A stretch of 64,000 nucleotides of DNA from the NCBI RefSeq assembly GCF_036711975.1, contig NC_091971.1, positions 2,363,501 to 2,427,500 on the forward strand. Reading direction: 5' to 3'. Each line of letters opens with the position of its first letter. Positions within the stretch are counted from its first letter, which is position 1. Below are positions 30,801-63,235 of this stretch, one piece after another. Below the pieces are notes generated by a model. The model searched no databases. It was not told the origin of the DNA and saw only the letters and a program-made list of their open reading frames with translations. This DNA is from Onthophagus taurus. Lineage: Eukaryota; Arthropoda; Insecta; Coleoptera; Scarabaeidae. The translations under genes and the position numbers were made by a program.

Positions 30801-33800
30801 AATTTTTTTTATTAAAACCCTTTAAACAAGGTAGTTTAAAAAACTCACCATATGTTCATAAAATTTTGCTTTACCCTCTTTTTAATTGAATCGCTTTGTC
30901 TACGGTATTGTAATCTTCTGCATTCCTCGGTCGAAAGTGGTTCTGGTAACTGTTTATAAAAACCTAAAATTAAAAAGAATTAAAAAAGTTTTTGCAGGGT
31001 GAAAATTATGGTAAAACTTGAGATACAATAACTTCCCTTCTCAAAGCGAATGTAAAGGAAAGTAAACGACAAGAAAAAGCTTGAAACTCCCCCATAATAA
31101 ATATTTGAGAAGCGGTCGCCCGCGGTGTGTACACACTTTACAATTTCTTAAATAAATTACGCTATAACTTACCGAGCCAACTAAGACTCTCAGTAGTCTC
31201 CAGCTTCTCCCTGAACGCGTCCACCTGATTTTGAAGTTGTTTAACAGCCGATGGGAGCGGAAGGTCGGCTTTTAGTTGTCTTTCTAACTCGGATATTCTC
31301 TGTTCGAGGACTTTCAGGTCCGTTCCGGTATTCTCTTGGAGCATTGCAAAACCGTTCGCCGCGACTACTTGCAGCGAGTATCTTTCCTCTTTGGTGTTAC
31401 CCTCCAGCTCTTGGTTTATATTCAGTAAATGACCAGATTTGTTGTACAATTTTATAATATCGCGCGGACCAGCCTCTGCTGCGGACCTAAACAAATCTAC
31501 AAAACAAAGAAGGAAAACGTTAAGATTTAAAACGCAAGGTTTTATTGAATTGAAAATCGTGGGAAACCCGACGGTGTTTTAGTTCCCTCGCATTTTCATA
31601 ATCCAAGCTGAAAGCACAAGCCTTCTCAATTAGGCGAGAACGCGACGAAAGTCACCGGCTCAGAATACCCCATTAAAGTATTTAGCTGAGCTTGAAAGTC
31701 GACGACTGCTCATGAAAATTTCATATCCAAGAATTTTAATTTCAACTCTTAAAGAAAGAATTGAGTAATTTTAGTGTTTAAAACGATATGCAAAACGATC
31801 TTTAGATGCATCATCAGCTAAGAATTTAATGAGAATTTCATTTAATATAATATATTATAAGATTTTTATTCATGAATAATATTGTTACATTATAATATTA
31901 AAATTTGCATTGACAAAAGTATATAACAAAGAAACTAATGTTTTGCAACTGATAAATATTAGTGCAAGTGGAGAACCTGAATTTTGTTTGTAATCAGAGG
32001 GGAACCACAAAACCACACAATCGAGATATTGAGAAAATTATCATATGAATAATATTAAAGAAAGTGCAAAGGAAATGCATAAAATTATACCGGGAATTTT
32101 TAACTCGCAATATATGAATAACTACAGTTAACCCCAATGTTTCTGGTTATAGATCTAGTGTTAATTCTACTTTTCGTTCAATAAAAATGCACCACAATCT
32201 GATGCTGAATAACAATTAAAACTAGAATTAACACTAGACTTAGAACTAGAAACATTCGGGTTCAGCCGCACGTCGTTCAAGGCGGCTAAACCCGAATGAT
32301 TCTAGTTCTAAGTCTTGTGTTAGTTCTAGTGATAGTGCCAAGCTAGAACTAACACTAGACCGAGAACTAGAAACATTCGGGTTTAGCCGCACGTCTTTCA
32401 AAACGGCTAAACCCGAATGATTCTAGTTCTAGGTCTTGTGTTAGTTCTAGTGATAGTGCAAAACTCGAACTAACACTAGATCGAGAACTAGAAACATTTG
32501 GGTTTAGCCGCACGTCTTTCAAGACGGCTAAACCCGATACTTTCTAGTTCTAGGTCTAGTGTTAGTTCTAGTTTTAGTTCAGTAAAAATATATAACATAG
32601 TGATATTTTATGCTAACTAGCGCTACCTACCAGCCATCTTAAGAGCTAAACGGAATGTTTCTAGTTCTAGGTCTAGTGTCTAGTTAGTTTCTATGGAAAT
32701 ATATCTTTGTATATAGCATCTTAAGCGAAATTCACTGTGTGCCACGATATTCGATTTTGTAAGTTTCTCAATTCTTAATACAGGTGCTCAAAAATTTCCC
32801 TTACAAACTTCGAGAACGTGTAGAGAGGACTAAGTACATATTGTTTTGAATTGGAACCCATGTCCGAAAACATACCGTTTCCGTGCTATAATATCCGTGC
32901 TTTTTATCCGTTTAAAGGATAAAAAGACTTTTTAAAACTATTTATTATCATTTTATTTAAATTTTAAAGTTGAATTCCACATTTAATGAAAATACCAATA
33001 TCAACTAGTCTATGGTTCATATAATCGATATGTTAATAGGTCAGCAACAAAATATTGTGCACATTTCCCAAAAGAAATAACTGATTCGTTTAAAAACAAA
33101 GACTTACGATAACAACAACAATAACAAAATCTAAATTGATCGCAATTCGAAGAAGACACCTCAATTAATACTCAAGAAATGGCGAAAATCAACACACATT
33201 GAATTTTTTCCATACGTATGATTCCATATGATTTCGATGAAGTCTTCACTTTTTTGTTTGGAATTATCAATAACATATGAAAGGGTCGAGTATTAGAAGC
33301 ATAATTATATTTATCACTGCACTTAAATTAAAACAATTAAAAAAAATATTATATACGACGCGTGTAGCAGAATTGAGATTAATCTCCCAAAGATCTTAGA
33401 GTGGAGAGTTCTCAGTTTTAATATAGAACCTCCATTCTCCAAAATTATCTATATCAGCAGAAGAGTCTATTAAAAGACATAAATAATCTCGTATTACTTC
33501 CCATTTAGTATTGACTATTTTTTAAGTCCAACTTCTTATAACGCCTATTCTGCCATTTTCTACCAATTCATGTATTCTGGAAATTACGAATTGTGATTTA
33601 GTCCAAGAGATGTTCCAACGACATCCATCTTTATCTTTAAGTCGTCGCAAATGTTTTAGATCACTCTAATAACTTGCTATTAGGTTGCATTTTGCCGATG
33701 ATAGGTTGAGTTAGGGTTTTAGTGAAGTTTAGACTGCCGTTTAGATTGCAGTTTAAATCTAAATCACATAATTTTTGCATATTGCCAATTCTACGAGTTA

Positions 33801-34773
33801 TGGTATGTTGTGTTCTATACATTAAGGCGATTGAGCTTCCTGGAGCCTTTCTACATATTGAGTTAATATAATTTCATTAAGTTAATAAGGTGGCGAATAA
33901 GCAAGACTACAAAACAAAAGATTCAACAAAAAGATCTTTATTATGCACAATACGATAAAGAAGAACATTTAGCTACATAAATGATACCAACCTAGCAATT
34001 ACGTTTGCATAAACATACTACTGTATTCGAGTGGAGTACAAAATCCCACAACTATGTAACAAACTGAATGTTTTGATCTTGATAGATAATAAAAAAGTTA
34101 ATAAAGAAGTTATGTAATGTAAAAACAAGAAACTTTGCGGTATGTTTTAGAAATAGCATCGTTCTCTGTCCTATTTATAGAAATTCATTATCACGTGGTG
34201 GTTCGCGAATGCCTTTCTAATGCATCGCGTCCCAAACCCACGGGTGTTAGTTTTATTGGTCGTAACGTATTAGATCGTCGCGGATAGAGGTATAAGGGCG
34301 GCGTTCTTGAAACACCATCTATATATAACTTTGGTATATCCAACGACGAAGGGAGCGCGCGTTCTATAGCTGGAAACAATAAACGTTGCGCGAAAAGCAA
34401 TCAAGAGAGGATCGTTAAAAACCCCTTCTTTCCGATGGATATATTCTCGCCGTAGTATTCGATTAATGTCTTCCTCTCTTTTTCTCTCATTGTAACGACA
34501 AATTGTTTACAAAGATAATTTTAATTTTTAATTAATTATTTTTGAAATAATAAGGTTTATTTTGAGACGAATTTACCGAGAATTCTATACTCGGTAATTT
34601 TGTTGCCTCAACAAAAAAAAAACAATATTTGATCTTCCCTCCAAGAGTTTTTCGTTTGCAAATGTTGTCTGTTTACCTTTGATTTGGTCCGTCGACGAGT
34701 TGGAATAGAAAATAGCCGATTCGTGGCGCGGACCCACGCTGAAATAAACCTGGACTGCTTGCGGAGGGTCCAT
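27876..34773 (-). CDS. Pde9: high-affinity cGMP phosphodiesterase 9
   Basis: PDE9 hydrolyses cGMP to GMP. Seven coding exons join in frame: 34677-34773, 31173-31496, 30849-30963, 30549-30786, 29805-30443, 29283-29509 and 27876-29133, about 965 residues. The start [14 protein letters not shown] is the first in-frame ATG after an upstream stop, and [20 protein letters not shown] resembles the mammalian N-terminal block ending IMDLF. The catalytic domain has [16 protein letters not shown] (metal and general-acid histidines about 247-251), [11 protein letters not shown] (His287, Asp288), [20 protein letters not shown] and the nucleotide-selecting Gln at about 448 ([13 protein letters not shown]). 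Exon joins at L-G-F and M-M-Y fall at conserved positions. After the catalytic domain there is an extra region of nearly 500 residues rich in Ser, Asn and acidic runs with no recognised domain, much longer than the tail of mammalian PDE9A. Intron 1 is 3.2 kb. Further 5' non-coding exons may lie upstream. Confidence 0.94.
32118..32700 (+). repeat. palindromic CTAG repeat, 121 bp tandem array
   Basis: Three units with a period of 121 bp start near 32222, 32343 and 32464. Each is a long hairpin: an arm ending CTAGAAACATTCGGGTTTAG, a short centre with CGTCT...AGACG, then the inverse arm CTAAACCCGAATG-TTCTAG. Flanking the stem, CTAG recurs every 6 bp (CTAGTT, CTAGGT, CTAGTG). A partial unit follows, containing TGCTAACTAGCGCTACCTAC. 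The same block recurs inverted at 58.8 kb. No coding sequence is seen and the family is not one I can name. Confidence 0.88.
33370..33860 (-). pseudogene. unrecognised decayed coding-like stretch
   Basis: On the minus strand this stretch reads as protein over about 160 residues with a normal amino-acid mix, for example [20 protein letters not shown] and [17 protein letters not shown], unlike the shadows elsewhere. It is broken, with a few interruptions. I do not recognise the family. Given the neighbouring segment it may belong to an old mobile-element fossil. Confidence 0.4.
33880..34460 (-). mobile_element. possible LTR-type fossil end
   Basis: On the minus strand a CpG-richer segment is followed by TATAAATAG (about 34174-34182), and about 230 bp further by AATAAAGATC, the order of promoter and poly(A) signal in a long terminal repeat. 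The decayed coding-like stretch follows directly. No partner repeat or diagnostic domain is visible, so a cryptic cellular promoter is an alternative. If it is an LTR element, it is an old single-ended remnant. Confidence 0.22.
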
Positions 34774-34938
34774 CGGGATCGTTTCCCGATCATTTTGTGA
34801 CGAGCGATTGGCCTGTTTCGTCCTTGAAAGCCCCACTGCGCGATGCAGCAGTCATCCCCCTTAAAATAAAAAAATCCATAAAATTATTATTTATGTTGGT
34901 AAAAAAAATTATAGTATAGTAAAATCTCGATCAACACT

Positions 34939-35250
34939 ATGAATGTTTCTAGTTCTAAATGTAGCGTTAGTCTTGGTGCTAGAACCAAGACTAAACCTAG
35001 AACTAGAAACAACGGGTTTAGCCGCATGTCTCTTTAGACGGCTAAATCCGAATGTTTCTAGATCTAGTGTTAGTTCAATAAAAAATACTACAACCTAGCA
35101 CTGAATCACAGTTAAAACTAGAACTAACACTAGAGCTAGAACCAGAAACATTTCTAGTTCTAGGTCTAGTGTTAAATTTGGTGGTAGACCTAAAACTAGT
35201 AGTAACACTAAACCTAGAACTAGAAACATTCGGGTTTAACCGCACGTAAT
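34939..35250. repeat. palindromic CTAG repeat locus 2
   Basis: Contains the arm pairs AACGGGTTTAGCCGCATGTC / GACGGCTAAATCCGAATG, the phased CTAG hexamers, and the family linker TTCAATAAAAAATACTACAA followed by CTAGCACTGAAT. Two head-to-head stems are present and the right one is cut off after the CCGCACGT half. Confidence 0.85.
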
Positions 35251-37028: not shown

Positions 37029-39055
37029 TGTTATTGGAATAAAATGACAAAAAGTTAAGAAAGAAAACGTTCCTAATTTCAGTTAATATTAATCTAGGGA
37101 CTTTTAGTTACTAGATTTAAGTTGAAATAATAATTTGACGTTTAACATAACCTAAAACTTGATAAATGACACATTAAAGTGTCAAATTTTAAATACATAA
37201 CGTTTAACTATTTATTTGGGTAAATTTATACAAAGTGAGAGAAATTGCTTCCCAGATGTCGACAAATATTTACTTCTAAATAATTAAATTTTCCGTTTCC
37301 AGTCGAAAATTTCCTCTGGTCCCTTATGAGTTTTCAATTTCCGATAAACACACACACAACTGGTGCCGCTTAATACCTCCTATAGCAAATAATATCCCAA
37401 TTAAACTCCTTCGAAACGATTCACCAGCATTTATTCCCCCAACCCCCCTAATTCGGCCCCCCGTTTTAAATTCAATTTACCATAGCGCTTCCGGCAAACT
37501 CGACCGTTTTATCCCATCGAATTTTATTACTATAACGCAATTCCGAGCCATCGATAAAACGGTATGGAATCCTATTTACCCCGACAGAATGTTTCATTTT
37601 ATTCCCTTAAAAAAAAACAATTCAAATTAAAACATCAACAATGTTACTTTCACAATTACGTTTCGTTATCTCTTTACGTTCCGAGAAAAAGAATTTGTTG
37701 ACGATAAATCGTGGTTTTATGCAACATAAAGAAAGGGATTGTAATAATAAGAACAAAGAGAAACACTCATCGTATTGTACAACTTTGTAGAATGATGTGT
37801 GTGTTTTAATGACTCAACAATTTATCTTCTTTTTATTGTATACAAACGTTGCAAAAAAAATTAAAATAAGTATATTTTTTAAACTTTTAGTTACATTTTA
37901 ATAATTTATAAATTTTTTTTCTTTAAAAAAACAATTTTGGTGGAGGCGCATACACAAAACATCATTTCGCTGGTTAAATTAAAATATGAATAAGGAGCCA
38001 AAACCCCAAGAAAACAGATACGGATGATGGAGTACTCATATCTACCCGCATATTCTCATTTAACTCCCCCTCGAGAGTCATCCAATATACCAAATAGATA
38101 CCTCAACGCTGCCGGCATTTCCATAACAATCGGTTCCTGGAGGCGAATTGCTCCCGATTTATCGCGGAGAGATCCTCGTCGTTTAACCACACCATTAATA
38201 ATTTCCTCGAGGATCTCTTTCATCATCAACACCAATCAGCTCTACTAGAGGAGAGAAATTCCTCAACGCATCAACCTCAAAGGGACCATTTATAATTAGC
38301 GGAAAAGCTTAGTGCGGCGTAGCTAAACCCAAATTGAAATGTTCAATTCAACATTTCATGTTACTTTATCGAAGCCGTTTCAATATCAGTTAATAATTAG
38401 TTGAATAAAATTGATTATGAAATATTCAAATACAGTAAAATAACTTTGAACTCTTTGAATGAATAATTTCAATGCACACAAATTCGAACAACTATCCGTT
38501 ACATTCAATTAAAATATACAAAAATCTAACTCTGAATAACAACTAAAATTAGAGCTAATACTAGCATTAGAACTAACAGTAGAAGACGCACGGCTAAACC
38601 CGAACGTATTTAGTTCTAGGTCTAGTGTTAGTTCTAGGTTTAGTTCAATGAAAAATATACAACATAACTAAAACAAGAACCAACGTTTAATAACACGATA
38701 TTAAAAATTCTTTTGTATCAAATCTTGTAATTTCACAATAAGTTATCACAATACATAAGAGACTGGAGGAAATTTTCGACTGGAAACGGAAAATTTAATT
38801 ATTTAGAAGTAAAAATTGGACGACATCTGGAAAGCAATTTCTCTCATTTTGCATAAATTTACCCAAATAAATAGTTAAACGTTATGTATTTAACATTTGA
38901 CACCTCAATTTGTCATTTATCAAGTTTTAGGTTATGTTAAACGTCAAATTATTATTTCAACTTAAATCTAGTAACTAAAAATCCCTAGATTAATATTAAG
39001 TGAAATTAGGAACGTTTTCTTTATTAACTTTTTAGTCATCATTTTAAAGATAACA
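37029..39055. repeat. 295 bp inverted arms flanking a 1.43 kb core
   Basis: The left arm (37029-37323) and right arm (38758-39055) are inverse copies with scattered differences, sharing GAAAACGTTCCTAATTTCA, TTGAAATAATAATTTGACGT, ACATAACGTTTAACTATTTA, TTTCCGTTTCCAGTCGAAAA and others. The core has no transposase. It contains a CpG-richer piece (38020-38245) and a CTAG palindrome locus (38523-38690). The outer ends show no clear target duplication. It could be a foldback-type element or a segmental inverted duplication. Confidence 0.85.
38523..38690. repeat. palindromic CTAG repeat locus 3
   Basis: A shortened member: CTGAATAACAACTAAAATTA linker, CTAG/TTAG hexamers, then ACGGCTAAACCCGAACGTAT and TAGTTCTAGGTCTAGTGTTA on the right side only. 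It lies inside the 37.0-39.1 kb inverted-arm structure. Confidence 0.8.
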
Positions 39056-40969
39056 GTTTAAGCTTTCATGTAAGATGTAGCTCGGTTCTTTACTCAAAGA
39101 AACAGGACATTTCAAACTTTAATTTAATATATAAATCATTTCTTCACGTTCAGAAATAAACCGAAAGTGGTTTTTTAAAGTTTACATCATGAAAGCAAAC
39201 TTTTTCAACAACACGATATAGAATGACTTAAAAATATTTTGTCTGTTATATCCAAAATCCGTTATAGCACCGTTGTATCGAGCTTTTGCTGTAATTTTAA
39301 TGGAATATACATTTTGGAATGCTAGTTATAAAATGTGTGAGTTATTGATTTTGGGATGAACGAACGTCGACATTTTCGACGCTCGACGTCGGTTTTCAAC
39401 CGGAACGAAACGAAGAAGAGGTCCTACAATGCCACGGGCAAGAATGAATAATGCAATGTTCGAGAGCCACTTTCTCAATTTCCACCATAGTTGGAACGAT
39501 GAAGAGACGCAAGGAATAGGATGAAATGAATTCGTTTCCTTGTGTCTCACCTAAAAGGAAATATTTCATTCTATTTAAAAATCTTCTAATAGATTTTCAT
39601 TCAGTAAAATATTTATTACGTGGAAAATTTTATTGCTATTTTTCTCCTTACATTTGTTCTCAAAGGAAAGTTCCATAGAAAAAATTCCAACGCATCTCCA
39701 TAATATAAAGTTAGACGAGTATGAAAAGAAAAAATTTATGAATTAAAACCTATACATTTATGTTGTGTACTAGAATTTCAAATTATTCCAGTTTCTCCAA
39801 TCCTCATTACGCCCTCTGTTGGGGGTTGCGTTGGTCGACAGCGGGTGGTTAACCCGTAGGTGGCGCGACGATCGAACGACGCGTTGCTTGACGTCAAATC
39901 GTATCGCCTTGGTTACACGTTTTGCCCCTTTTCTTTCTGTTCTTTTTCCTCACCAGCCGTAATCCATCGAAATTGTGGTCGCGATGACACCCCATTATTA
40001 CCCTCTGAGAGTAGGAGGGTAAATCCCCCAACTTCGATTTCGACGCATTACCTTTTCATTGCACGGATTGAAACAAGAAATTCGATGATGATTTTGCACG
40101 ATTTCATATTTCCATCATCTTCGAGATTTATTATTATTGGAAATCGTTTATTACACGAACGAGGAAGTTATTTACTTGATTTTATTGGCTTCCGTTAACA
40201 AAATAAAGTGACGTACAAATTGCTTATTTCCCAGAAAAACAATATTTGAGTAATACCAAGTTTAAATAAAATAATAGAAATTAAATTGATCATTTTAGGG
40301 TAGGTTTAATAAAAAAGGGGAGTTAAATCGAAACTTGATACGACTCGAATTCGATCCTTACACGTTCAAATTGCGAATAAAACGTTTATTAGCCATTTCG
40401 TTTTCATGGTTACTTCGGTTGGCAATTGTGATTTTACGCCTACCAACCCCCCTAAAAAGACCACTCTGATTTTCCGAAAGTTATTGTTATGTCAATATTT
40501 ACGGTACTTTATCCGGTTTAAATTTCTTTTTAAATAAAATTTTAAAAAAAACGGATTTGCGATGTGTCACATATCGCACCATTTTTATTTCGATAGGGTG
40601 GGAAGTTGTGCATAATAGAGATTCCCGCGGGAAAGCTTGGACTTTTATCCTGGCGATCGAGCGCCGCCTGCCGGAAGTTAATGCGATAGAGAAACAATGG
40701 CCCTCTGACGGCCGCGGCCGGCCCGCTATCGATTGGGTCAACTTCGAGCGACCGCGAATTTGTTTATCTAATTTCCCAACTAAACTCACTTCGAAAATGC
40801 TTCCGACATTTCACGGGTATAAACTACAAAACAACTGTATTATTATTGTTTTAATGAAAATTTACGTTTTCGATTTAAATTTTCTAAAATTAACTCTCCA
40901 GAAGATAGAAATAACCAAATGTCACGGTTATTGACATTGATGTCAATTTAATATGATGCACATACAACC
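39056..40969. other. gene-free stretch with CpG-rich blocks
   Basis: CpG-richer blocks occur at about 39340-39500, 39780-40060 and 40600-40790. A CTCF-like site lies at 39809-39822. No protein was recognised in any frame. Confidence 0.4.
39809..39822 (-). promoter_or_regulatory. CTCF-like motif
   Basis: The minus strand reads CCAACAGAGGGCGT, 12 of 14 matches to the CTCF core. A second related GGTGGCGC lies 40 bp to the right on the plus strand. Confidence 0.35.
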
Positions 40970-41372
40970 TATACTCTGTTTTTAAACCAGGAGGAGTAAA
41001 CGCGAAAGTCAGATTTACACTAGGAAAAATCACCAGAAAATATCACTAGATATTTTGGCGGTAAATTTAAATTAATAATTATTATTATTTATTTATTTAC
41101 TTATTATTGTATTTATTTTCGTTTGTTATCGTCAACACTAAACATACAAATTAACATTGAAGTTATGAGTGTATTTATTTCAAAATATAATAAAGAAGGG
41201 TTTAAGAACACAAAATTTACAATAATGACACGAAACTGTCGAATTGTCAATAACCTAACCTTCAAATTCAAAATTGCCTGTGTGTGAACCTTCCTCGCAT
41301 TCAACCAATCACGTGCAAGGTCAATCTGGTGACAAATTTAAAATACTCCTCCTGGTTTAAAAACAGAGTATA
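40970..41372. mobile_element. TA-flanked MITE, copy 2
   Basis: Same 27 bp perfect terminal inverted repeats and TA flanks as the copy at 19501-19904, 403 bp including the TA pairs. Its right end touches the first unit of the 122 bp minisatellite. Confidence 0.9.
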
Positions 41373-41801
41373 ATTGCCAAAGAAAACTTCAAGGTATAAT
41401 TAATGTTTGTAAACAAAACTAACCTTACATAACATTCCTTCACGCTATAATTGACATTACAAAAGAAAACTTCACGCTATAATTGCCATTACAAATTGCC
41501 AAAGAATACTTCATGGTATAATTAATGTTTGTAAACAAAACTAACCTTACCGAACATTCCTTCACGCTATAATTGACATTACAAAAGAAAACTTCACGCT
41601 ATAATTGCCATTACAAATTGCCAAAGAATACTTCATGGTATAATTAATGTTTGTAAACAAAACTAACCTTACCTCACATTCCTTCACGCTATAATTGGCA
41701 TTACAAAAGAAAACTTCACGCTATAATTGCCATTACAAATTGCCAAAGAATACTTCATGGTATAATTAATGTTTGTAAACAAAACTAACCTTACCTAACA
41801 T
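41373..41801. repeat. minisatellite, 122 bp period
   Basis: The phrase TAATGTTTGTAAACAAAACT recurs at 41401, 41523, 41645 and 41767, exactly 122 bp apart, with the intervening CCTTCACGCTATAATTG and ACTTCATGGTATAAT blocks nearly unchanged. There are about 3.5 units. The array fills the space between MITE copy 2 and a CTAG palindrome locus. Confidence 0.92.
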
Positions 41802-41805
41802 TCAG

Positions 41806-41898
41806 CGTCTGAAGACACAGGGCTAAACCCGAAACTTAAAAATATACAACTTAGCGCTGAATAACAATTAAAACTAGAACTAACACTTGCACTACAAC
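41806..41898. repeat. palindromic CTAG repeat locus 4, interrupted
   Basis: Contains GGGCTAAACCCGAAAC, the linker AAAAATATACAACTTAGCGC, then TGAATAACAATTAAAACTAG and AACTAACAC. MITE copy 3 begins at 41899 and truncates it, so the MITE inserted after this repeat. Confidence 0.8.
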
Positions 41899-42311
41899 TA
41901 TACTCTGTTTTTAAACCAGGAGGAGTAAACGCGAAAGTCAGATTTACACTGGGAAAAATCACCAGAAAATATCACTAGATATTTTGGCGGTAAATTTAAA
42001 TTAATAATTATTATTTATTTATTTACTTATTATTGTATTTATTTTCGTTTGTTATCGTCAACACTATACATACAAATTAACATTGAAGTTATGAGTGTAT
42101 TTATTTCAAAATATAATAAAAAAGGGTTTAAGAACACAAAATATACAATAATGACACGAAACTGTCGAATTATCAATTACCTAACCTTCAAATTCAAAAT
42201 CAAAATTCAAAATTGCCTGTGTGTGAACCTTCCTCGCATTCAACCAATCACGTGCAAGGTCAATCTGGTGACAAATTTAAAATACTCCTCCTGGTTTAAA
42301 AACAGAGTATA
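41899..42311. mobile_element. TA-flanked MITE, copy 3
   Basis: 413 bp including the TA pairs, with the same terminal repeats as the other two copies and a small internal duplication (CAAAATTCAAAATT). It sits 526 bp to the right of copy 2 in the same orientation. Confidence 0.9.
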
Positions 42312-42689: not shown

Positions 42690-43615
42690 ATACATTAGTC
42701 TTCCGTTAGCAGTAATAAATCTTCTGTAGCAGTATCTATCCTTCAGCAAGTAATCTCCAGCTTTCTGCCAACAATATATAGTCATAATATACAGACTATA
42801 TCTTGTCTTCTTCCAACAGTATCTAGTATCTCCCAGGTCTAAAAGCAACATCAAGTTTTCTTTGAGCACTATCTAGGTTCTGCAAGCAGTATCCAGTTTA
42901 GTGTCAGTAATATATAGTCATTAGCAAGCAATATCTAGTCTTCTTCCCGCCCTGTTTAATTTTCTTCCAGCATATTCTATCATTCTTTATGGAGTATCCA
43001 GTTTTCAGTCTTCTACCAGCCATATAGAGTCATCTGTAAGCAAAATATAGCCATCTACCAGCAATATCTAATCTTGTTTCAATAGTATTTAGTCCACTAT
43101 CAGCAATATTAAGTCTTCTGCTAGCAGTATCTAATCTTCCACTAGCAGCATCCAGTTTTCAGGCTTCTACCAACCATATAGAGTCATCTATTGCAAAATA
43201 TACTAATCTACAAGCAATATCTAATCTTATACCAGTAGTATCTAGTCCACTAACAGCGGTATGTTGTCTTCTGCCAGCAGTATCTAGTGTTCCACCAGCA
43301 GCATCCAACGTTTAGTCTTCTACCACCCATATAGAGTCATCTATAGCAAAATAATCATCTACAAGCAATATCTAATCTTATTGCAGTACTATTCAGTTTT
43401 CTGCCAACAGTATCTAGTCTTCCACCAGCAGTATTCAATTTTTAGTCTTCTACCAGCCATATAGAGTCATCTATAGCAAAATATGGTCATCTACAAGCAA
43501 TATCTAATCTTGTTCCAGTGCCATCTAGTCCACTAGGGGCAGTATTAAGTCTTCTGCCAGCAGTATCCAGTTTTCTGCAAACAATATATAGTCTTCAGTG
43601 AACAGTATCTTCTCT
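42690..43615. repeat. degenerate minisatellite, ~21 bp basic unit
   Basis: About forty variants of TAGTCTTCTGCCAGCAGTAT follow one another. A higher-order unit is visible from the anchor CATATAGAGTCATCT at 43021, 43174, 43328 and 43458 (spacing 153, 154 and 130). The left end is more diverged than the middle. No open frame spans it. Confidence 0.88.
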
Positions 43616-46150
43616 TCTTCTCAACATTTGAAGGTAATGGAATGAAGTGTCATCTAATTTAGAAAAATTAACCTGAACAAGCTTGTCAACTGGACTAAGT
43701 TAAAAGTGTGACATATTATGGTCGATTTTGAGTCTAATCCTCTCTATCGGTTTGCTTGCGGTGAAGGAAGCATCAGATGCAAGAACTTGCTTGAATTTGA
43801 CCTAAAACGATCATAGAAAGATTATCGTCGAACTAGTACTTCTTATCTTTGAAGAAAGTTGCCTGTGATCCTAAATGAATGAAATAGACGTTTATACAAA
43901 GTAAGTTTCTGAGTAACTTCATAAATTTCTTAGGTTCAACTTTTTATGTTTAGAAAGAAAAGAACTATGTCAATATCAACAGCAATGATGACAATCAATC
44001 CATATAAAAACCGTCCCATAGGAAAGGAAAGTTGGAAAACGGAGAAAAATAGGAATCGATTGTTGCCTACACAGAAGGAGGGAGTTCCGTTTTTATCGAT
44101 TTCACGAGTAGGGAATTTAGCATCGGAACGCGATGCAACGGCGCGTGTTGAGGGTCGCCGTAAACAATTAACCTCTCAAACGCAGAACTTCGAGATACCA
44201 CGCTGTTCAATTATAAAGGACGACGAAGATACGAAAAAAGAACGAAATTTTTACTACTTTGTACACAAATTTAAACTTTAAATGATAAAAAATAATAATA
44301 AATAAATCGAACTGTCAAAATCGTGAATGGCGCGGATTTTGATATAGATTGCTTCATGTCAAAATGTAAATATGCATTTGACATTGAGGTTATGGTGATG
44401 TCATCGCAAAGGAAAATTTGAAGATTTATATAGATTTACCCAGATTTACGAGAAAATTTAAAAGTAAATCAAATCGTGATGTTTGGGATCCCTTTGAGTA
44501 TCTGTTCTTAGGTGGGACCGGTGTTAAGAGAAGACGACGTCGAAAAGGGGACGGAGGGGTACACCAGGAGAGAGATCAACGACTTATTATGTACTTAGTT
44601 TAGCAGACTACCTTGGGACAGTAACATTCCATCGGCAAAGGCCGTTCAAGAACGTGCGTCGAACTGTGACTAACCGAACCCGGCCATAAACGCGCTCTAT
44701 TTACGAAGATTCCTGAAGGAATCTTATCGAGTCAAACATTATAATTTTTTTTTTAACCAAGTAAATATTACTAAATATAAACGTAAATTAACATTTTTTA
44801 AACTTGATTTAAAGTTGACCAACAAATCCGCCCTAAGGGTGAGTTTTTTTTTAATAAAAGCGTTCATTGCATCCGTCGTAATCCTGGCCTGGAGTCTACT
44901 TTGAATAATGAAATAATTAAAAACGTGCCTCGTCCTGTAGCGGGATTAAAATACGAGAGGCTCATCATGAGAAAACAGATCAAAATAATTCTAATTCGAA
45001 GTAAGACTAATCCGACATTAAAAATACAGTTATTTAAATTTAAATTTCCCACTTTCAATTGATAACTCATATCTATAATGTCAAAATCAAAATAAATTTT
45101 GAGGTTAAATTTGTTTTGACAGTTTTAAGTGATTTTATTTTTTTAGGTTATGTTGACGTTTAAATTTCGATTTTTGTCCCTTTTTCAACCCCCCGTTTTT
45201 GTCGTGTTGTGACCTCGAGGCGTACACGAAGAGTTTCTTTGTTACCAATGTTTGTCCTGGTTACAATCTCCCGTACCTATTGTTACTACATCAATGGTGC
45301 AGCTTCTTTTTAAAAAGACTAAGGATTTCGTTCTTTCTTTTCCGAAAGCAAAAATGTCCGATTAAATTGTCTCTGTTATATTTTAGTAGATAACTTTTTG
45401 TTAAAACAGAAAAAAATGGCAATTAAAGTAAGTAATAATTATAGCTAAACAATTTTTAAGGTTATGGGTTTTGTAATTGCGTTAGTGACAATCGTTACCA
45501 ACCTAAATGTTATTTTCGTAAGTCAAATTGAAACGATTACATTTAACTCATTTTATTGTATTAATTTTTTACAAATGCAACATTTAAATCACAATCCAAG
45601 GTCTTTCAACAAACGATAGTGATACGAATCCGAAAACACGTGTTTTTGAAGTGCACCGATGTTTTACAAAACGTATCGCCCCTCGCCTTTTTGATAAGAT
45701 CCTCGTTTCTATTTTTCATCTCGGTTTTTTTTTAAGAAGATAAGAGTTTTAATCGTTTTGTGAATGGTTTTGTACAGAGAAAATCATCGCGTATCTTATC
45801 AAAAATGTGAAGAGAAAAGTTAAAACAGATAACGGTTTTAATTTAAATCATACATTTTTGAATTAACTTTTAATAGTTTATTGTTGTTTTTGTTATCGTA
45901 GTTAATTGGTTTTTAGTACTTTTGTTCTTTAGAGTGGATTTAAATTGAAAAATAAATATATGGACGTTGACTGGTTTTTAGCACCTAATTATTAATAATA
46001 ATACATACGTTTTATTTTAGATTTCAAGGTTTTATTTTATTTATCTTTAAAGGATTTTTGTAATAGATTCTTTTTAAGGTTAGATTATGTCACCATCATC
46101 TAGGATCACCTTCCACTCTCTTCTATCTCGTACCTTGATCTTCCAATTTG
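43616..46150. other. gene-free stretch with CpG-rich blocks
   Basis: CpG-richer pieces lie at about 43990-44190 and 44480-44700. A frame of 111 codons starts at 43946 but resembles no known protein. The words TGACATTGAGGTTATG, TTGAGGTTAAATTTG and GGTTATGTTGACGTTTAAA recur. Nothing else is recognised. Confidence 0.4.
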
Positions 46151-46370: not shown

Positions 46371-49210
46371 TAAAATTCGTTTTTATTTTTAGATGAATAA
46401 TAATAATTTTAAACGTTTATTCCGGGTGCACAAATGGAATTAACTACAATGGATGTTATTTACAAAGGATATTTTGGTGCTGTGTAGTTATTACAAAGTC
46501 TATTCATGTAATCCGGTTAATAATTCGATCGATAAAATGGCATTCGAGCAAATTAGTATGCAACTGGTTGGTGTGCTGTTAATACTTTGACCATTTTAGC
46601 TGAGGTTGGATGGATATAACAACAGTTTAGCAAAATCATTAATTTAAATTTATAACCTCACTCTCTGACTTTCAATATTGAAACAAATTTTACTCAGATT
46701 CCAAATAGACAATATTTTTAATCTTAATTCTACTATTTTTTGTTCTTCCAGATGGGCGATTTAATTATTTAAATTGAAAAATCAAGCTCCGTCTTTATAA
46801 AATAATCTTCTTCACAAATACCTCTGCTCACCGAAGTGGAGAACACCTCATAATTGCCTAACGATCCGTTTTAATGGAAATTCGATACTACAAAGGGGAG
46901 TTCCAAAACACCTTCAAATCCGCACGGATTTACGTACTGCTTTTGATGCCTTGTTAAAGTAAACCATACAACCTTGTCATATCAATCTAAGGTAGAAATT
47001 TCTAAAAGGGAATTTTAATTTCCCTAAATTTTTGGCGTTAAATTAATCATTGATTTTATAAATAGATTATAAAGGATTAGAAATAGTCTTCCATGAATAC
47101 ATATTTTAATATGTTTATGACTTTTAGAGGTTGATCTATTCTTGGTTCGATTTAAAACTCATTTAATCTCCAAAACAAAATTTCAAATTTATATGTTTTC
47201 GTAATTATTTCTAAAAAAAATAGAAAAACAATATTAGTAGACCCCCGTAATTTTAGTAATAATAACAATGCGTATATTCCATTAAACTAATTATACATTA
47301 TGTGATAAAACCACGTTATATTGGTTTCTGGTAAAAGCCATTTTACACCGAAACGCGATAATAATTTTATTTTATGAATAACAAGCTAAAAATGTGTTCA
47401 TCTAATTGTAAGTTGGAATAATGTCGATCGAAAATAACTTCAAATGTTTAAATTGAACGCAAAAATAACGAAAAAAATGGAACTTTTTGGCTTGTATATT
47501 ATAAACTCAATAAAAATTTTAATCGTTTTAATTTTTGATGTTTCGGTTTTAAATCAAAAGACATCAATCCAAAAAAAAACATGTTTATATCTATAAACTA
47601 TATTCAAAATTATATTACAGTAAAACATCGATATAACGGACTAATATGGGGAAGGGAGCAGTATTGCCAACCTATACGGGCGAAATCTCAGAAATTGTTG
47701 TTTGATAAAGGTTTACAAATTAATTAATATATGTATATAGCCGGTTTTTATTTTTTTAAACTCAAATAATTTAACTTAAAGAATTGTTTATTTTTCTGAA
47801 TAGAGGATCATATTGACAAGTTATTAATATGGTAACACTCGGGATTCGGAGCATGTTACAAAAAAACTTTTAGAACAAAAGTTGTAGCAAATTTTATTCT
47901 AAACAATATTGCTCTCTTTCACTTTTACTCTCAGATGCGTAAATATCCAGAAAAATACGAAAATATGATAATTTGATGAAAGCGTTGTTGCACTGGGGAT
48001 TGCAAAAAAACTTTTTAAACAAAAGTTGTAGCTAATTTATTCGCTATAACGCTGAATAACAACTACAACTAGAACTAACACTACAATATTTTGTTCGTTA
48101 TATTTGAAGTCCGTTCTAACGCGGTCTGTAATACCGAGGTATAATTGTATTTCATGATTAATGATTACAGCAAATGAATTTAATGTATATTATATTTGAC
48201 AGACAGATTCTGGATTATAATGTATTAAAGCTCAGTGGCCCCTTTTGACTCGGTGGATTCAATAATGCACCACCTCGTTAGTACTGCTCGGCGCCGCCGT
48301 TTTGTGCCTTTCGTATTACGCGAGAGAGGTTTCAACCTTTCCCCCCACCCTTTCGATTTTATGCGCCCCTTTAGGCCCCCGGGCCAGACAAGTAACAACC
48401 GAGCGGTACTAATTAACTATAGAAACGGCGCTAATTACTTCTGCAAAGTGTGGCCGGCTAAACAGAGCATAAAAATAAAATCAAAAGACAACTTACATTT
48501 TAAAATAACACCCTTGTTATCTAATCCAAATAACTTTATTACAAAAAAGAAACTTATAAGAAAAATATCATATATTCATAATTGGTAATAAAAGGTTAAT
48601 TTTTCCTTCGAAAAAAGAAAAAAAGGTAAAAAAATACTAAAAAAGATAAAGGGGCTGATTTGATAAAAGGATGATGGGAAACGCTTTGTCCCTCTCATCA
48701 TCAAAGACGTGGAAGAGGAAATAAATGAAATAAAAAGGAAACTCATTTCCTGCTCCCTACGTTCCGGATAAAAATATATCGTCTTTTTGAGAGAAAAAAA
48801 AGACGAACAACGAACAACCAGATAAACAACAACAACAAAAAAGTAATAAAATTCTTTAAAAAAAGTTTCCATTTTTATGGCTCCTTTTTTTTGGTACAAA
48901 AATCGAGATATCTCTGATTCTCCATTATGTTCATTTATTTCTATTTTTTCCTTGAATGTCGGGAGCGAATTCGATTCGCGTCGTGCAAAAAAAAGGGACG
49001 TTCTTGAATGCGCGTATTCTCGATTCAGCCCAATTCGCGTTGCATTTTGCATTCAGTATGAGCAGGCAAAATCGATTTTGGCTTGTGTCAAATCTACGTG
49101 CTATTCTGTCTATAAATCTCTGAAATATTCGCCTCTATTTTACCATTTTCAGGATCACTTTTTATCGCGAAACTTTAAAGATATAAAAATATGTATTTTA
49201 AAGCACACAG
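46371..49210. other. gene-free stretch
   Basis: AT-rich, with one short CTAG repeat remnant at 48047-48095 (CGCTGAATAACAACTACAAC then TAGAACTAACAC) and one clearly GC-rich block at 48235-48460. Long frames over 48235-49350 have no recognisable similarity and overlap on opposite strands, so I do not call them. Confidence 0.4.
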
Positions 49211-50455: not shown

Positions 50456-52470
50456 AAAAAACGAACTATACGTCAATATTATTTCATTGTATTTTTGAAT
50501 GTACTCAAAAATTGACTTTGTGTCAACTTTATATAGAGTTCTTACGTCTATAGTATGAAGTTCTTACTATCTAAGTTATGTCGCTTTATCAATAGATGAC
50601 ACAACCAACAATAATAGAAAATGATTCTGTTAACAAACGTGTATCCTCCTAACTATCTTATCAGAAATATTGGTTGAAAAACTCTGCGAAAAGGTTTGCA
50701 GGTTACGTCACGAGTTAATGTCCAATGAAATTTTATACAATAATATGATCCATATTTATTTTGTCATATAAGCTACAGCATTACAATGTATTATTATGAT
50801 GTAAATATACCAGTGTCCCATTTAAGGGAATATTTCAAAAACTACCCATCGGATCAAAAAAGGTTTGGGATAAACTTGGGTAAACTCCCATATTCCCTGA
50901 GGTTGGAACGGAGAGTAACCTTAAAATATCAAGTGGAACCCTTTTTACTAGAGATCCAAATTCTTTATAAATATATTTTTTAACGCATAAAACTAAAAGT
51001 TACACCATGGATTTTAGTAATAATAATAACTATTCATGAAAAAAAGAATGTTGTTACTCTGTACGGTGAGCGTTCTTTTTTCTACTGAAGGAAGAGTATA
51101 AGAAATGAAAAAAAAGCATGCAGCTTGGGTTTGGGGAAAAAATATTACATATTTCTCGAATGAGTGTCTAAAACATACTGGAGTTACAGAAAATTCCTCC
51201 GGATCAAGTATTCATACATTAAGATCTGTAGGATAACTTCTAAACTTAACTAATGATTGCATGTCTCTGACAGTATTTCAATGTTCCTGATGTCTTATTG
51301 GCCGTGCTAAGTGTTGTTCGTGAAGAACAACACTTAGCAGAACAAGATGGTTTATATAGATGATTGGCATTATTCTGTCAATATTCCAGTACACATGGTG
51401 TCTTACAGAAGTATTTAATTGCTGTTCTAGGATACTGAATAAAATGGCACATGGCTCTAATAGCTCTCGTATTCTTTTGCTGCCAAAAAGATTAGATACA
51501 GCTTGCAGAAGGTTACATACATCCTTGCATAAAACTAAATACTGCTGATAAGAAGACTGAAGTAACTGTATAAAATTTTTTTATTATTCTTTGTTATACG
51601 TTGTCATTGCAAATTGATAAGCATTTTGCTTTTTTGAAACCATCCTGAAAACATTACTTTTCACTTCGATGAAGTTCCATTAAAAATGAAAATGAAACCT
51701 CGACTTTTTTTTAAGAACTCAATTTCAATCTAGTAAAATTGAAAAAGCTAATTATCTCAATCTCCCCTTCTTTTTTTTCCTTTATAAAAAGAAACCCCCC
51801 CGAGTTTTCGACGCCGAGTAGATTTCAAAGAGAAAACTGGGTACAAAAAAAAAATATAGAGTAAAGCGATTTTCCACCTTAGGGAGAAAACGCGGTGACC
51901 AGTAAAGGAGACCCCAAGAAGCCTCTTCAATAGGTTGAAGGGTCCGAGGGGGTCCTGTAAAAGATCGTAGGTAAGTTTTCCCAAAGCGTTTACGTCGTCT
52001 TCTCACCGTTTCATGGAAAAATCTATTTTCACCGTCGCGGCTGGAAAAACTAGGTCAAAATTTTCCGTGTGACCAACGTCCATAGATAATTTAACAACAC
52101 GTTGCTCGGTTTATTTCCGCTACAGAAGTTAAAGTAGTACTAAAAAAAATAGGGCAATTTTTTTACAAAACCAAAATTTTTTTAATAAAGATTAAAACGA
52201 AGGTTATAATTCTCTCTTAAATGGGATTTAAATTAATAATCTGTTTGAAATTGCCTTTTGAGCCGGGTGAAACAATTTGTCTTGAGATTACTTAAAGTTG
52301 GTTTGGGGTAATCCAACAATTTGTAAATGTCCCTTGATAATAATGTTCAGGGTTAAAGGTCGGTCTCTATTAGGTACCCGTTTTCCTTCCATTTTAGAGG
52401 ATCAAAAGAACCATAAAGATTGAATTTTCTTTCAAAAAATTTTTAGGTTATGACAGGTAATATTTTCTGC
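50456..52470. other. gene-free stretch
   Basis: No gene is recognised. A perfect 15 bp inverted repeat lies at 51305-51339. A mixed-composition block at about 51870-52090 has overlapping frames on one strand but no recognisable protein. Confidence 0.4.
51305..51339. repeat. perfect short hairpin
   Basis: TGCTAAGTGTTGTTC, a 5 nt loop, then the exact inverse GAACAACACTTAGCA. At 35 nt it is too short for a microRNA precursor and it lacks a T-tract, so a protein-binding palindrome or a deletion scar of a foldback element is more likely. Confidence 0.6.
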
Positions 52471-52471
52471 A

Positions 52472-52545
52472 TGTCTCTTAAGACGGCTAAACCCGAATGT
52501 TTCTAGTTCTAGGTCTAGTGTTAGTTGAACTTTTAATTCAATTAA
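52472..52545 (+). repeat. palindromic CTAG repeat locus 6, half unit
   Basis: Only the right half of the hairpin remains: TCTTAAGACGGCTAAACCCG then AATGTTTCTAGTTC and the phased hexamers, ending in GTTAGTTGAAC. Confidence 0.8.
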
Positions 52546-54020
52546 AACAAATTAAAAACTTGTCATACAACAGACTTTTGGCTATAACGGTCCCTCCTTT
52601 CCCCGTATTAATCCATTACATCGAGATTTTAATCTAATTAATTTGACGTTTAATATTGACAGATAACATAACCTCAAAAAAATTCCAAAAACGTCAATTT
52701 AAAGTTTTGTTGATACCTTTTCATTTTTCTAATAAATTTATCATTTTAAATTCAAATTGAAACTTCAGTTAAAGTAAATGTTTGCGAAACTTGATGTTTG
52801 CTAAACGTATTTTGAAGGAGGGAGAAAATTTTCAATTTATCGTTTATCCTGTTTAAAGAAAAGATTCGGTTCCAATATTTGAAAATACATATTACTTAGG
52901 TAGCAGAGAACGTAATCGGTTGACGTGTTTAGTGATCTAATTCACCAATGGATTGCACATAGTCTGTCAACCTTAATTATCACCTCTCATCCCTTAATCA
53001 AGTTCGAAAAGTAGTCTCCGGTTTCCGGCTCGCTTCCCTTTAGCACAACGATAACGCTGACAGTTACGTGTTGAGGGGTGAAGCAATTAACAGATGTATT
53101 AAGAGATGGAAGGGGAAACAACCCAACCATTACGCTAATTACAAAAAAGAAACAAAAATAACTTAACATTTCAAGTTTGCGAGATATTTACAACTTTTAG
53201 TAATAAATAATTAAAACATTTTCGACCCAAATTTTAAAATTTTAACATTTTTTTAACACTGATAACTATTACTTACCTGCTGATAACACAGGTTAATCGT
53301 TAAAAAAGCTCGTAGTCGCATGTTATCTAAATTATTGGTCCGACTATGCATCGAACTAAACTCGTATGTAAATATTTGTGATAGTGAAAGTCGTCGTCGA
53401 CGTAAATATAAAGAATAAGTTCAACAAATAAGTTAAAATGACACATTGGTAAAATAACTGTCAAGTTAAAATGACACAGTGGTGAAATTAATGTCATGAA
53501 TGACAACTATAATATACCTATGTATGTATTTAGCACACTTGTAACTTGTTTAAACGAGTTTTACAATACTAAGATTTATCTAAACAACGAATTTTGATTT
53601 ATTCCACGTAGACTTACCTCAATAAACCTACCCGAGTAAATTTATTTTGTTGAACACACCATGTTAATTAACGTTGGTAATAATACTTTGTATAACCACA
53701 TCAACGTCGTCAACTTTAACTAAAATCAGTGATGCACAAATAATAACGTTTCGTGCCTTATGATAATAAAACTTGTTATAAACATAAACATGTGTAGTGG
53801 TCAGTACTACCAACAGTTTATTTTTTCTTGATATTTATAGGACAAATCTGTCAAACCGTTTCTGATTGGTTCAAGGTCGAAATTCCATTCGCCCATATCA
53901 AATAATGCAAGCAAATTTATTGACGTGTACTATATAAAACGAGTTAAAAATCTATTATGTTCAATGAGATGTATTAAGACATTTTAGATTAAAATTCGAA
54001 AAAAAATGTAAGTGTATAGT

Positions 54021-58460: not shown

Positions 58461-58669
58461 TAATAGTGATATCTAAAGTGATGCTGATAAAAAATTGTGC
58501 TATTACAATTTTTTTATTACTAATTTATGCATTGAAAAACGTAATGGTGTTAACCATGTAAAGATATACAGGTGTTTCAAGTTATAAATCAATTACAATA
58601 AAATATACACATAAATCACATAAATGTTGAAATCTATAGATATACAGTGCATTGCATACATATTGCCTC

Positions 58670-59205
58670 GATATAATGGATCAACATATAGCTCAATAAA
58701 AATATACAACACTCTAGCGCTGAATAACATATAAAACTACACTATGACTAGCACTACAACTAACACTAGAACTATAAAACGTTCCGTTTAGCTGTACCTC
58801 TCTTATGACGGCTGGTAGGTAGCGCTAGTTAGCATAAAATATCACTATGTTGCATATTTTTATTGAACTAAAACTAGTGCTAACACTAGACCTAGAAGTA
58901 GAATCATTCTGGTTTAGCCGTCTTTAGAGACGTGCGGCTAAACACAAATGTTTCTAGTTCTAGGTCTAATGTTAGTTGTAGTGACAGTGCATGTGTAAAG
59001 CTAGAACTAACACTATACCTAGAACTAGACTCATTCGGGTTTAGCCGTCTTTAGAGACGTGAGGCCTAAACTCAAATGATTCTAGTTCTATGTATAGAGT
59101 TAGTTCTATATAGTAACAGTACTAAGTACTAATGTAAAACTAGAACTAACACTAGACCTAGAACTAGAAAGATTCGGGTTTAGCCGTGCTTCTTCAGACT
59201 CAGGA
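58670..59205 (-). repeat. palindromic CTAG repeat locus 7, large copy
   Basis: An inverted counterpart of the 32.1-32.7 kb array. It contains GTAGGTAGCGCTAGTTAGCA and ATAAAATATCACTATGTTG, the reverse complement of the block at about 32595-32630. Three stems follow with TTCGGGTTTAGCCG or its inverse and phased CTAG hexamers. Units are more diverged than at 32 kb. Confidence 0.88.
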
Positions 59206-60664: not shown

Positions 60665-61907
60665 ATGGATATTTTAAATTCGAGAGATCCAAAAGTCTTT
60701 AACCAACCCGAATTGGTACGCATTGGAAATAATCTTTTTCGTCGATATCCGGTAGAAATGGCCCATAAATCTGATAACCAACTTGGTCCTTATACAGACA
60801 ACGATGGTGAGATAATAAAAAGGATTTTTATTAACTAACTATATTTACATTAATTTTTAGATGAAATGATTAATTGTGCTGAATTAGATGATGATGTGGA
60901 GATAAAAGTAACGAAAAGTGGACAGTTTTTGACTAAAATTCATGTAGCCCCTTTCTTCTTTGGTTTTATTATCGGGACTCGTGGTTCTAAACGTAAAGAA
61001 ATCGAAATGGATACTAATACGCGAATTAAAATACCTAAACAAGGCGAAACTGGGGATATTGTTATAACGGGATCTTCAGAAAGAGATATTTGCTCAGCAA
61101 GATTACGAATCAACTTAATTGTTTTACAAATGAGGGAAAAACACCAAGTTACTCATTTTTTATCAATTCCGCTGGTTTCTGATCAAATAAACAAAAATTT
61201 CGAAATATTTAAGGTTAAGATTATTTTAACTAATAATTTAATTCATTCATTCATTTTTTTTAGAGTAAATTAATGAGTGGCCCTCCATTAAGAGGTGTTG
61301 AAGAGAGTATTTTTATATCGCCTCAAAAATTACATTTAACATTAGCCACTTTTGTTTTATTAGATGATTATGAGATTGATAATGCTGTTGGGGTGATGCA
61401 TGAATGTCAATCGGAAATTTTACAGTATATGTATAAAATAGTTTAAAGTAATTATTTAAAGCAATTTTTTTTAGTTCACTATTTAAGAACGCCCCACCAC
61501 TAAAAATAGTAATGGAGGGTATTGAAATTATGAATGATGATCCCACTTCTGTAGATGTTTTATATGGCAAAGTAAAATTGGATGTGCAAAAATATAATTC
61601 GAGTTTACAAAAGATGTCGGATTTATTAGTTGATCAATTTGCAAAGAAAGGTATCATTAGGAAACAATATGACAGTGTTAAGTTGCATGCAACTTTAATG
61701 AATTCAAGATATCGTAACGCTAAAATCAGTGATGAACGAAATAATGGTAGAAGAGAACAGCGCGAAAGTTTTGACGCTTCTTTTATTTTAGATAAATATA
61801 AAAATTTTTATTTTGGTGAAGCTGATTTTAAAGAAATTCATTTATCAGTTCGTTTTACAACAGGTGATGACAAATATTATGAGTGTTGTAAGTTAATTAA
61901 CTTGTAA
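60665..61907 (+). CDS. ASCC1: activating signal cointegrator 1 complex subunit 1
   Basis: Subunit of the ASC-1 complex, which acts in transcription coactivation and, with ASCC3 and ALKBH3, in alkylation repair. Four exons, 60665-60806, 60861-61213, 61264-61424 and 61475-61907, join in frame to 362 residues, close to the known isoforms of the human protein. An N-terminal KH domain carries its GxxG loop as GTRG (about 86-89) in FFFGFIIGTRGSKRKEIEMD, followed by TRIKIPKQGETGDIVITG. The C-terminal part is a 2H phosphoesterase-like domain with both histidine motifs, HLT (189-191) and HAT (290-292, KLHATLMNSRYRN), plus IEIMNDDPTSVDVLY and ESFDASFIL. Exon 3 alone completes the first motif, which supports the splicing. 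AATAAA is at 61940-61945. Confidence 0.95.
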
Positions 61908-61973
61908 AATTAATTTTTTTTAATTTGTATTTTTGTTTTAATAAAAAGATAAATTAAAATTTTTTCTATATTT

Positions 61974-61991
61974 GTCGCTAGGGGGCGAAAC
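61974..61991 (+). promoter_or_regulatory. CTCF-core-like motif past ASCC1
   Basis: TCGCTAGGGGGCGA keeps the vertebrate-style AGGGGGCG core (11 of 14 positions). It lies about 70 bp beyond the ASCC1 stop codon. Confidence 0.35.
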
Positions 61992-62149
61992 TTTCTTTTT
62001 TTCGAAGGCGGGGTAAAGAATACTTAATACGGTTATTTTAATATTTATAAGAAAATTTAATAAATATTTTGATTATATATTTCATTTAATTCGGGTATAA
62101 AATGAATATAATTTAAATTTTCAGGGATAAAGACATTTTTAAAATTTCT

Positions 62150-62168
62150 CGATAGATGGCGCCACTTT
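62150..62168 (+). promoter_or_regulatory. CTCF-core-like motif past ASCC1
   Basis: CGATAGATGGCGCCACTT, with the insect core AGATGGCGC intact. It is in opposite orientation to the identical word at 60552-60566, so the gene lies between two inverted copies. Confidence 0.4.
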
Positions 62169-62984
62169 TAATTTCACTGCAGAAAATATAAGAATTATAT
62201 TTTAGTTTTTTTTTTTTAAGAAAATTTTAAGAATATAGAATAAATAAAAATTGGCAGTACAAAGTGAACAGTTTTAATTAAAAATTGATAAAAAAATATA
62301 ATGTTTTTGAAAAAGAAAAAAAATTTAATTGTTCCTAGGTTAACAAAAAAGTCATTTTGACAATGATGTGTCAATGTCAAATTTCATGTACAATTTAAAA
62401 CTGCTAAATGGAATCGAACTGTATTGATGTTATAAAATGGCATTGTGATTTAAATTGTATTTAACTCATAATATGATTAGATATTATTTTCCGCTTATTG
62501 TTAAAAGCTATTTTATTGCCCAAAAGGATTATGATTGTAAAATTTATCTGTTATTGTATGATTAGTACCTGTTTTTATTTTTAAAAAATTACTTGAACTT
62601 GAATGAAAAAAAAAACGTCTATAACAATATTTTTTTTAATAATTTATTAATTATAAATCGTAATCAGTTTTCAAATATTTAGAAGACGTCAATCATTAGT
62701 ACTGATTTAATTTAAAATATATCAAGTAGGATTGTATTTTTTTTCATTAATCCAAAAATATACACGGTGATATTAATATTAATGTACAAAAACATATTTT
62801 ACTTTTAAATATATAATATGCAAAATCCGTATTTGAACACTCTCCGAAATATTAGTAAATCACGAACTATCCAAGAATGGTAGTAGAAAGGTTCATTATT
62901 TTTATAATTTCAAGCAAAGATTTTCATTTTATATGAAATTATTTTATTACTTTTCTTTGTTCATTTGAAAGTTCTAACAAACAT

Positions 62985-63235
62985 TAAAACTAACACTCCG
63001 TGTTAAGCCGTCTTAAGAGACGTGCGCTAAACTCGAATGTATCTAGTTGTAGGTCTAATGTTAGTTCTAGTTTTAACTGTGATTCAGTGCTAGGTTGTTG
63101 TATATTTTTATTGAACCAATACTAGAACTAGAAACATTGAGCTAGTGTTAGTTCTAGTTTTAATTGTTATTTGGCGCTAGATTATACTGATAGATTATAA
63201 TGAACTAAAACTATAACTAACACTAAACCTTGAAA
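62985..63235. repeat. palindromic CTAG repeat locus 8
   Basis: Contains GTTAAGCCGTCTTAAGAGAC, a CGTGCG-CTAAACTCGAATGTA half-stem, several CTAG hexamers, TTTTAACTGTGATTCAGTGC (the inverse of the family linker) and a second set of hexamers ending near AACACTAAACC. It is diverged and partly rearranged. Confidence 0.8.

Follow-up and report, generated by a model that had tools for sequence, protein, structure and literature searches.

A 64,000-nucleotide stretch of the Onthophagus taurus genome (NC_091971.1, positions 2,363,501–2,427,500; hereafter the window, in whose positions coordinates are given) carries eight loci with one shared repeat. The repeat is a ~125-bp inverted-repeat unit with CTAG-like words at 6-bp steps. 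With a probability of roughly three in four, a non-autonomous DNA transposon of the cut-and-paste type has left these loci, some as full copies and others truncated or decayed, together with satellite-like arrays that stem from its interior; the transposon is most likely a pogo-like member of the Tc1/mariner group.

The loci were compared by direct reading and with repeat finders. Arms of the unit were detected with an nhmmer profile of the 51-bp arm, using a significance cut-off of expectation value (E) <1e-3 and the reversed window as a control. Twenty-two significant arms were found, spread over six loci (32130–32679, 34941–35242, 38591–38640, 52484–52529, 58870–59186, and 63026–63073), and the best matches reach E 6e-19. 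The locus at 41806–41898 has a weak arm (E = 0.008) plus a linker-module match, and that at 48047–48095 is only a ~34-bp linker and arm fragment. A preliminary description, made from the sequence alone, had assigned all eight loci to one design and had seen none in the first 31 kb. Both statements hold, the second because the three arm-profile matches in 1–31 kb (E 4.9 to 9.7) are no better than what the reversed-window control gives (best E 3.1). The features of the loci are listed below, with the strand in brackets where one was assigned; A, B, and X are terminal modules described further on.

32090–32737 (−): complete short element, with the B end on the left (CCGGGAATTT...), the A end on the right (minus strand, CAGTGAATTTCGCTTAAG...), and the array between
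32130–32679: array of 8 arms, with 121-bp tandem units at 32218–32572 (2.9 copies)
32178–32220 (+): linker module (AATAAAAATG..GCTGAATAAC), by module match
32688–32738 (−): A-end module, positions 4–54 of 107, by module match
34917–34931 (+): X-end remnant (TAGTAAAATCTCGAT) after TA, 13/15 matching by eye and missed by the module searches
34941–35242: array of 6 arms, by arm profile and module search; right element end not found
38505–38642: decayed linker and arms (one arm at E<1e-3), within a separate 280-bp inverted-repeat pair
41803–41900: fragment of linker and incomplete arms, with a 122-bp tandem array on one side and a direct duplicate on the other
47615–47653 (+): isolated X-like end, TA followed by CAGTAAAACATCGATATAACGG, about 400 bp before the 48-kb fragment and associated with it by position only
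48050–48083 (+): short linker and arm fragment of about 34 bp, read by eye (arm E = 0.13)
52469–52535 (−): half unit with one significant arm (52484–52529) and part of the centre, by arm profile
52582–52637 (−): X terminal module adjoining the 52-kb copy, TA-flanked, by module match
58690–58735 (+): linker module, by module match, after an X remnant at about 58645–58690 (by eye)
58870–59186: array of 5 significant arms with a 127-bp tandem period, by arm profile and repeat finder
62992–63234: decayed copy with one significant arm (63026–63073), a linker (63072–63114), and further weak arms

Two of these copies sit among other repeats. At 37049–39033, a pair of 280-bp inverted repeats (94% complementary and separated by 1,425 bp) encloses another putative element, and the 38.5-kb hairpin copy lies inside the pair. 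Between long direct duplicates at 40969–42311 (three blocks 93–100% alike, spaced by about 930 bp) stand a 122-bp tandem array (41372–41803, 3.5 copies) and the 41.8-kb hairpin fragment.

The arm is ~51 bp in length and has the majority sequence AAAACTAGAACTAACACTAGACCTAGAACTAGAAACATTCGGGTTTAGCCG (879 arms). Arms occur in both orientations around a centre that is most often 14 bp (e.g., CACGTCTCTCAAGA). CTAG is present at 46.8 per kb in arrays and 1.5 per kb outside them (295 kb of sampled sequence), and neighbouring CTAR/YTAG words up to 40 bp apart are spaced by a multiple of 6 in 3,029 of 4,388 pairs, which bears out the hexamer phasing reported earlier. A single unit has a folding energy of −73.3 kcal/mol as RNA (z −14.4) and of −47.8 kcal/mol as DNA (z −15.7), and its fold was matched by 0 of 200 shuffles. 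Self-pairing had been called perfect; arm-to-arm match within the hairpin is about 87%, and three mismatches are mostly fixed. The linker between neighbouring stems had been put at about 55 bp. A separate ~46-bp linker module does exist, mainly beside terminal module X or at array edges, but the usual in-array linker is 8 or 14 bp. Two other identities are not supported. The CENP-B box has the motif TTCGNNNNANNCGGG, which is near-absent (2 sites in 295 kb of sampled sequence with 391 paired hairpins), and this speaks against a CENP-B-box satellite. Structured-RNA families of Rfam gave 0 matches at the gathering score in the window.

The genome searched comprises 290.8 Mb in 33 contigs; for the published O. 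taurus assembly, 290.0 Mb and 53.3% repeats are given (PMC10942260). The arm 26-mer AACTAACACTAGACCTAGAACTAGAA has 18,133 genome sites at ≤1 mismatch and 0 in the reversed control, which excludes a repeat restricted to this window. The sampled sequence (286 kb) holds 888 arms and 397 arm 26-mer sites, and the window alone holds 22 arms and 6 sites. Extrapolation from both ratios gives about 40,000 to 66,000 arms genome-wide. With ~62 bp taken for each arm, they would occupy some 2.5 to 4 Mb, close to 1% of the genome; these values are rough, as the sampled loci were chosen by similarity and the window is small. Among the matches listed, arm sites are scattered along contig C1. On contig C4 (2.69 Mb), similar arrays occur at no fewer than five places within 360 kb (1946746–2304292), and near-identical internal spacing in four of the listed places suggests a large recent duplication or a repeat-rich block. 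The arm 26-mer and the X 22-mer have 0 exact matches in viral contigs and an arm 20-mer has 0 in GTDB genomes, as expected for an insect repeat. No report of this repeat family was found in the literature by sequence words or topic; iMITEdb (PMC5199201) may hold the family.

Arrays in 20 genomic stretches have flanks that recur from one stretch to another, and the architecture was derived from loci L051 and L052, seven X-linked loci, L061, and L062. End A (CAGTGAATTTCACTTAAG... / CAGTGAATTTCACTTAAGATGCAATATAC...) is the diverged inverted counterpart of end B (C.GGGAATTTCATATAAC... / C.GGGAATTTCATATAACTCGCAATATATG...). The two agree at 22 of the outer 28 positions (by eye) and have the block CCCACATAAAATGCAACAT further in in common. 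Genome-wide, 603 A ends and 574 B ends were found, with 0 in the controls. Among the first 100 listed exact places of each, all seven A–B pairs within 6 kb face inward, 348–3,173 bp apart; two pairs have a spacing of about 3.1 kb (C2:360843–363963 and C3:4522465–4525664). TA lies directly outside 9 of 11 A ends (13 matches, 2 truncated set aside), 10 of 11 B ends (12 matches, 1 truncated set aside), and 13 of 14 X ends. Both ends were located in six elements, four of which have TA on both sides (L043, L051, L061, and L062).

Complete elements enclosing an array are L051 (1,920 bp), L061 (380 bp), L062 (744 bp), L043, L040, and the window copy at 32090–32737, which has TA on its left side, TG on its right, and no open reading frame (ORF) of 100 amino acids or more. 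With lengths of 380, 648, 744, and 1,920 bp, inverted ends, many copies, and a lack of coding sequence as checked in the window copy, the elements qualify as miniature inverted-repeat transposable elements (MITEs). Target duplications of 8–10 bp, as in Tetris and Mutator foldback elements, are absent, and TA flanks are present instead. The preliminary description had offered a hexamer repeat captured in a foldback element, or a structure kept by replication slippage. An element with inverted ends and linker steps of one hexamer were indeed found, but a structure maintained for its own sake is not supported. It had also raised the possibility of internal pieces of a known transposon; the units are internal to a transposon, but no named database family was found in searches that did not extend to Repbase or Dfam.

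Module X (CAGTAAAACCTCGATATAACGG...GTCCGTTATAG) is terminal-repeat-like and lies just inside A in many copies. CAGTAAAACCTCGATATAACGG has 808 genome sites, and X directly follows A at 249 places (≤3 mismatches). Copies have the order X, linker (CTCAATAAAAATATACAACAATC...GCTGAATAAC), and array, and the 100-mer of X and linker matched at ≥92% in all 40 cases scored out of 1,234 first-look candidates. Module X is at least partly a separate family. Since it occurs away from A, it is probably the terminal repeat of a distinct family and sits nested within the A/B element or joined to it. Insertion of X at the central TA of a palindromic A–A′ element was considered and rejected, the predicted empty centre TTTGACATTAATGTCAAA having 2 sites (≤1 mismatch) versus 1 in the control. 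A–X modules at both ends were seen in one copy only (L058).

Within arrays, units are arranged head-to-tail. Same-strand arm intervals (n = 386) are 127 bp in 129 cases and 121 bp in 95, and 246 leave a remainder of 1 modulo 6. The common linkers ATAGTGCA and ATAGTGCTAGTGCA (8 and 14 bp) differ by exactly one hexamer, as slippage would give. Arrays reach 37 arms where the locus is uncut; the maximum, 53 arms, comes from a locus with both ends cut. Of 391 units with paired arms, 379 could be oriented by the centre. Between neighbouring units, likeness is 92.5% for left arms and 93.8% for right arms, while a left arm is 87.1% like its own right arm and 86.9% like the right arms of other units in its array. 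Comparisons between loci give 90.0% for left–left, 91.9% for right–right, and 86.7% for left–right. Units are more alike within an array than between arrays, and the greatest likeness, that of same-strand neighbours, indicates that homogenisation acts on the tandem array and not on the hairpin. Head-to-tail arrays of homogenised units are also the mark of a satellite.

A transposon of this kind would insert at TA; its inverted ends A and B have diverged. Its interior ~125-bp unit is itself an inverted repeat, with arms of near-hexamer words around a 14-bp centre. A pogo-type transposase would mobilise the element in trans. DDE_1 (pogo/Tigger-type) transposase genes are plentiful in the genome, with 150 of 150 scored matches (of 1,691 first-look candidates) and many long open frames. 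Arrays would grow by unequal exchange and slippage, free arrays would result from loss of ends or ectopic exchange, and the element would serve no host function.

Several observations weigh against the transposon. Its TA counts are not all independent, because the B ends of L025 and L046 have an identical outer flank and 10 of the 14 X ends stand in A context. TA is missing from both ends of L040 and from one end of the window copy. Of the first 100 listed exact X places, 77 lie outside the listed A–X junctions (≤1 mismatch) and 23 inside. An intact autonomous partner was not seen among the places compared: of the 100 A places listed, 2 have a DDE_1 match within 6 kb, one of them in the opposite orientation, and the listed B and X places that were compared have none. 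At L060 (C1:40292300–40294850), a broken DDE_1 transposase gene lies beyond an A end. The A end there runs into TA followed by CAGTATTACCCC, so the gene may belong to another element. By eye, an apparent ~1-kb insertion framed by inverted repeats also lies between this A end and the gene. Array regions whose arms are not cut by locus ends number 48 (42 with two or more arms); 24 of them have no A, B, X, or linker within 250 bp in a lenient search, and 33 have none in a stricter one. The edges of free arrays show no fixed phase (25 arrays at 17 loci picked as lacking ends).

With 24 of 48 regions lacking a recognised element piece, many arrays now stand alone. The remainder of the lenient search comprised A or B at 13 arrays, X without A or B at 3, and the linker only at 8; most sampled loci were picked for long arrays. 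Other means reveal X-like remnants in at least 2 of these 24 regions (L041, and the 34.9-kb window locus by eye), and such remnants lie near the array at both L041 and L042, which were picked as end-less. Similar sequence is present on both sides of 4 of the 25 free arrays, from which little is drawn. The likeliest history is that the element came first, the array grew inside it, and the ends were then lost by deletion, decay, or exchange.

The reverse order is the best of the alternatives, though unlikely. An independent dispersed satellite would have spread through extrachromosomal circles, break repair, or ectopic exchange, and later been captured by the A/B and X transposons. The 24 to 33 end-less regions (by stringency), the unfixed phase of array edges, and the greater likeness of units within than between arrays all favour a satellite origin. 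It fits poorly with small complete elements that hold just one or two units exactly between A and B (L061 and L055) and with an X–linker–arm junction that recurs in 40 of 40 scored places, and the sample behind the end-less count is biased to long arrays.

It is quite improbable that the hairpin is functional and selected, as a source of double-stranded RNA or as a protein-binding or regulatory repeat. Its fold is very stable, and 77.5% of recently evolved O. taurus open-chromatin regions are reported to overlap a repeat (PMC10942260). Arms also match their own partners better than expected, with an excess reached by 1 of 300 within-array permutations. That excess is a tiny 0.15 points, which we read as local subtypes, and an arm fits other partners of its array almost equally well; maintenance of the hairpin by pairing is therefore not supported. 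In most units, the left arm departs from the right one at columns 3, 18, and 35, giving nearly fixed stem mismatches. Together with the near lack of arm co-evolution, these speak against selection on the hairpin, and the window has no Rfam family at the gathering score. The hairpin is best seen as an inherited symmetry carried by tandem homogenisation. Chance or low-complexity likeness is negligible: short words do recur in an AT-rich genome (the window has 31% G+C), but the reversed control has 0 sites versus 18,133 and arm matches in the window go down to E 6e-19.

Other features of the window include a degenerate 21-bp repeat array at 42742–43620 with higher-order periods of 130–153 bp. Two ORFs (16439–17020 and 17672–18271, in the region 16192–18271) have an identical C-terminal stretch of about 180 amino acids, presumably prohibitin-like. 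Both are trailed by the same 18-bp tandem pieces (17452 and 18703), and the pair suggests a recent tandem gene duplication or an assembly duplicate. An Atg9 exon at 8533–10530 (minus strand) is 100% identical to an O. taurus protein over 98% of the query, with Oryctes borbonicus next at 68%.

As a transposon with a tandem interior, the O. taurus family resembles several described systems. miDNA4 (Scalvenzi and Pollet 2014) is presented in a review as a Xenopus MITE of the Tc1/mariner group that holds an internal satellite, and the review also sets out a model in which ends are lost (PMC12628747). Both miDNA4 and the beetle elements are small non-coding elements of Tc1/mariner type with a variable-copy internal tandem repeat, and end-less arrays are explained for miDNA4, too, by decay of ends. 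By that description, the hosts differ, and the inverted-repeat monomer with hexamer-phased arms sets the beetle family apart. Tetris, a foldback transposon of Drosophila virilis placed in Mutator, is described with TIR-220 repeats of ~220 bp and 8–10 bp target duplications (PMC4079207). It is likewise non-autonomous, with inverted ends and internal tandem repeats that also form longer free satellite-like arrays. The beetle elements differ from this account in their TA flanks and in a unit of ~125 bp that is itself an inverted repeat. Pogo-like Tc1/mariner elements are reported to have a TA target duplication (PMC7325037), which agrees with the TA flanks and with the abundant DDE_1-type transposases of O. 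taurus; unlike the elements reported there, the beetle copies have no transposase. Satellites of Tribolium madens, another beetle, are described as tandem repeats of about 110 bp with hairpin potential and macro-dyad symmetry over kilobases near centromeres (PMC13081366). In O. taurus, by contrast with that account, each unit is symmetrical in itself, and the short arrays are dispersed. By analogy, the O. taurus family would work like Tetris and miDNA4; its ends are of the miDNA4 kind, and the inverted-repeat monomer is its own feature.

Growth of internal tandem repeats in small DNA transposons is a known route to dispersed satellite DNA, and the beetle example adds a very high copy number. 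Short elements, array-bearing elements, and end-less arrays coexist in the O. taurus assembly. With two related dung beetles also reported to have assemblies (PMC10942260), the order in which these forms arose is directly testable. It is a long shot that a repeat with a hairpin monomer (~50-bp stem) and tens of thousands of arms, lying near genes, could feed endogenous small interfering RNA or open chromatin. If so, the arrays would be raw material for the young, repeat-rich regulatory regions described in O. taurus (PMC10942260). The nearly fixed mismatches between arms indicate that an impressive hairpin can ride on array homogenisation without selection for it as a structure.

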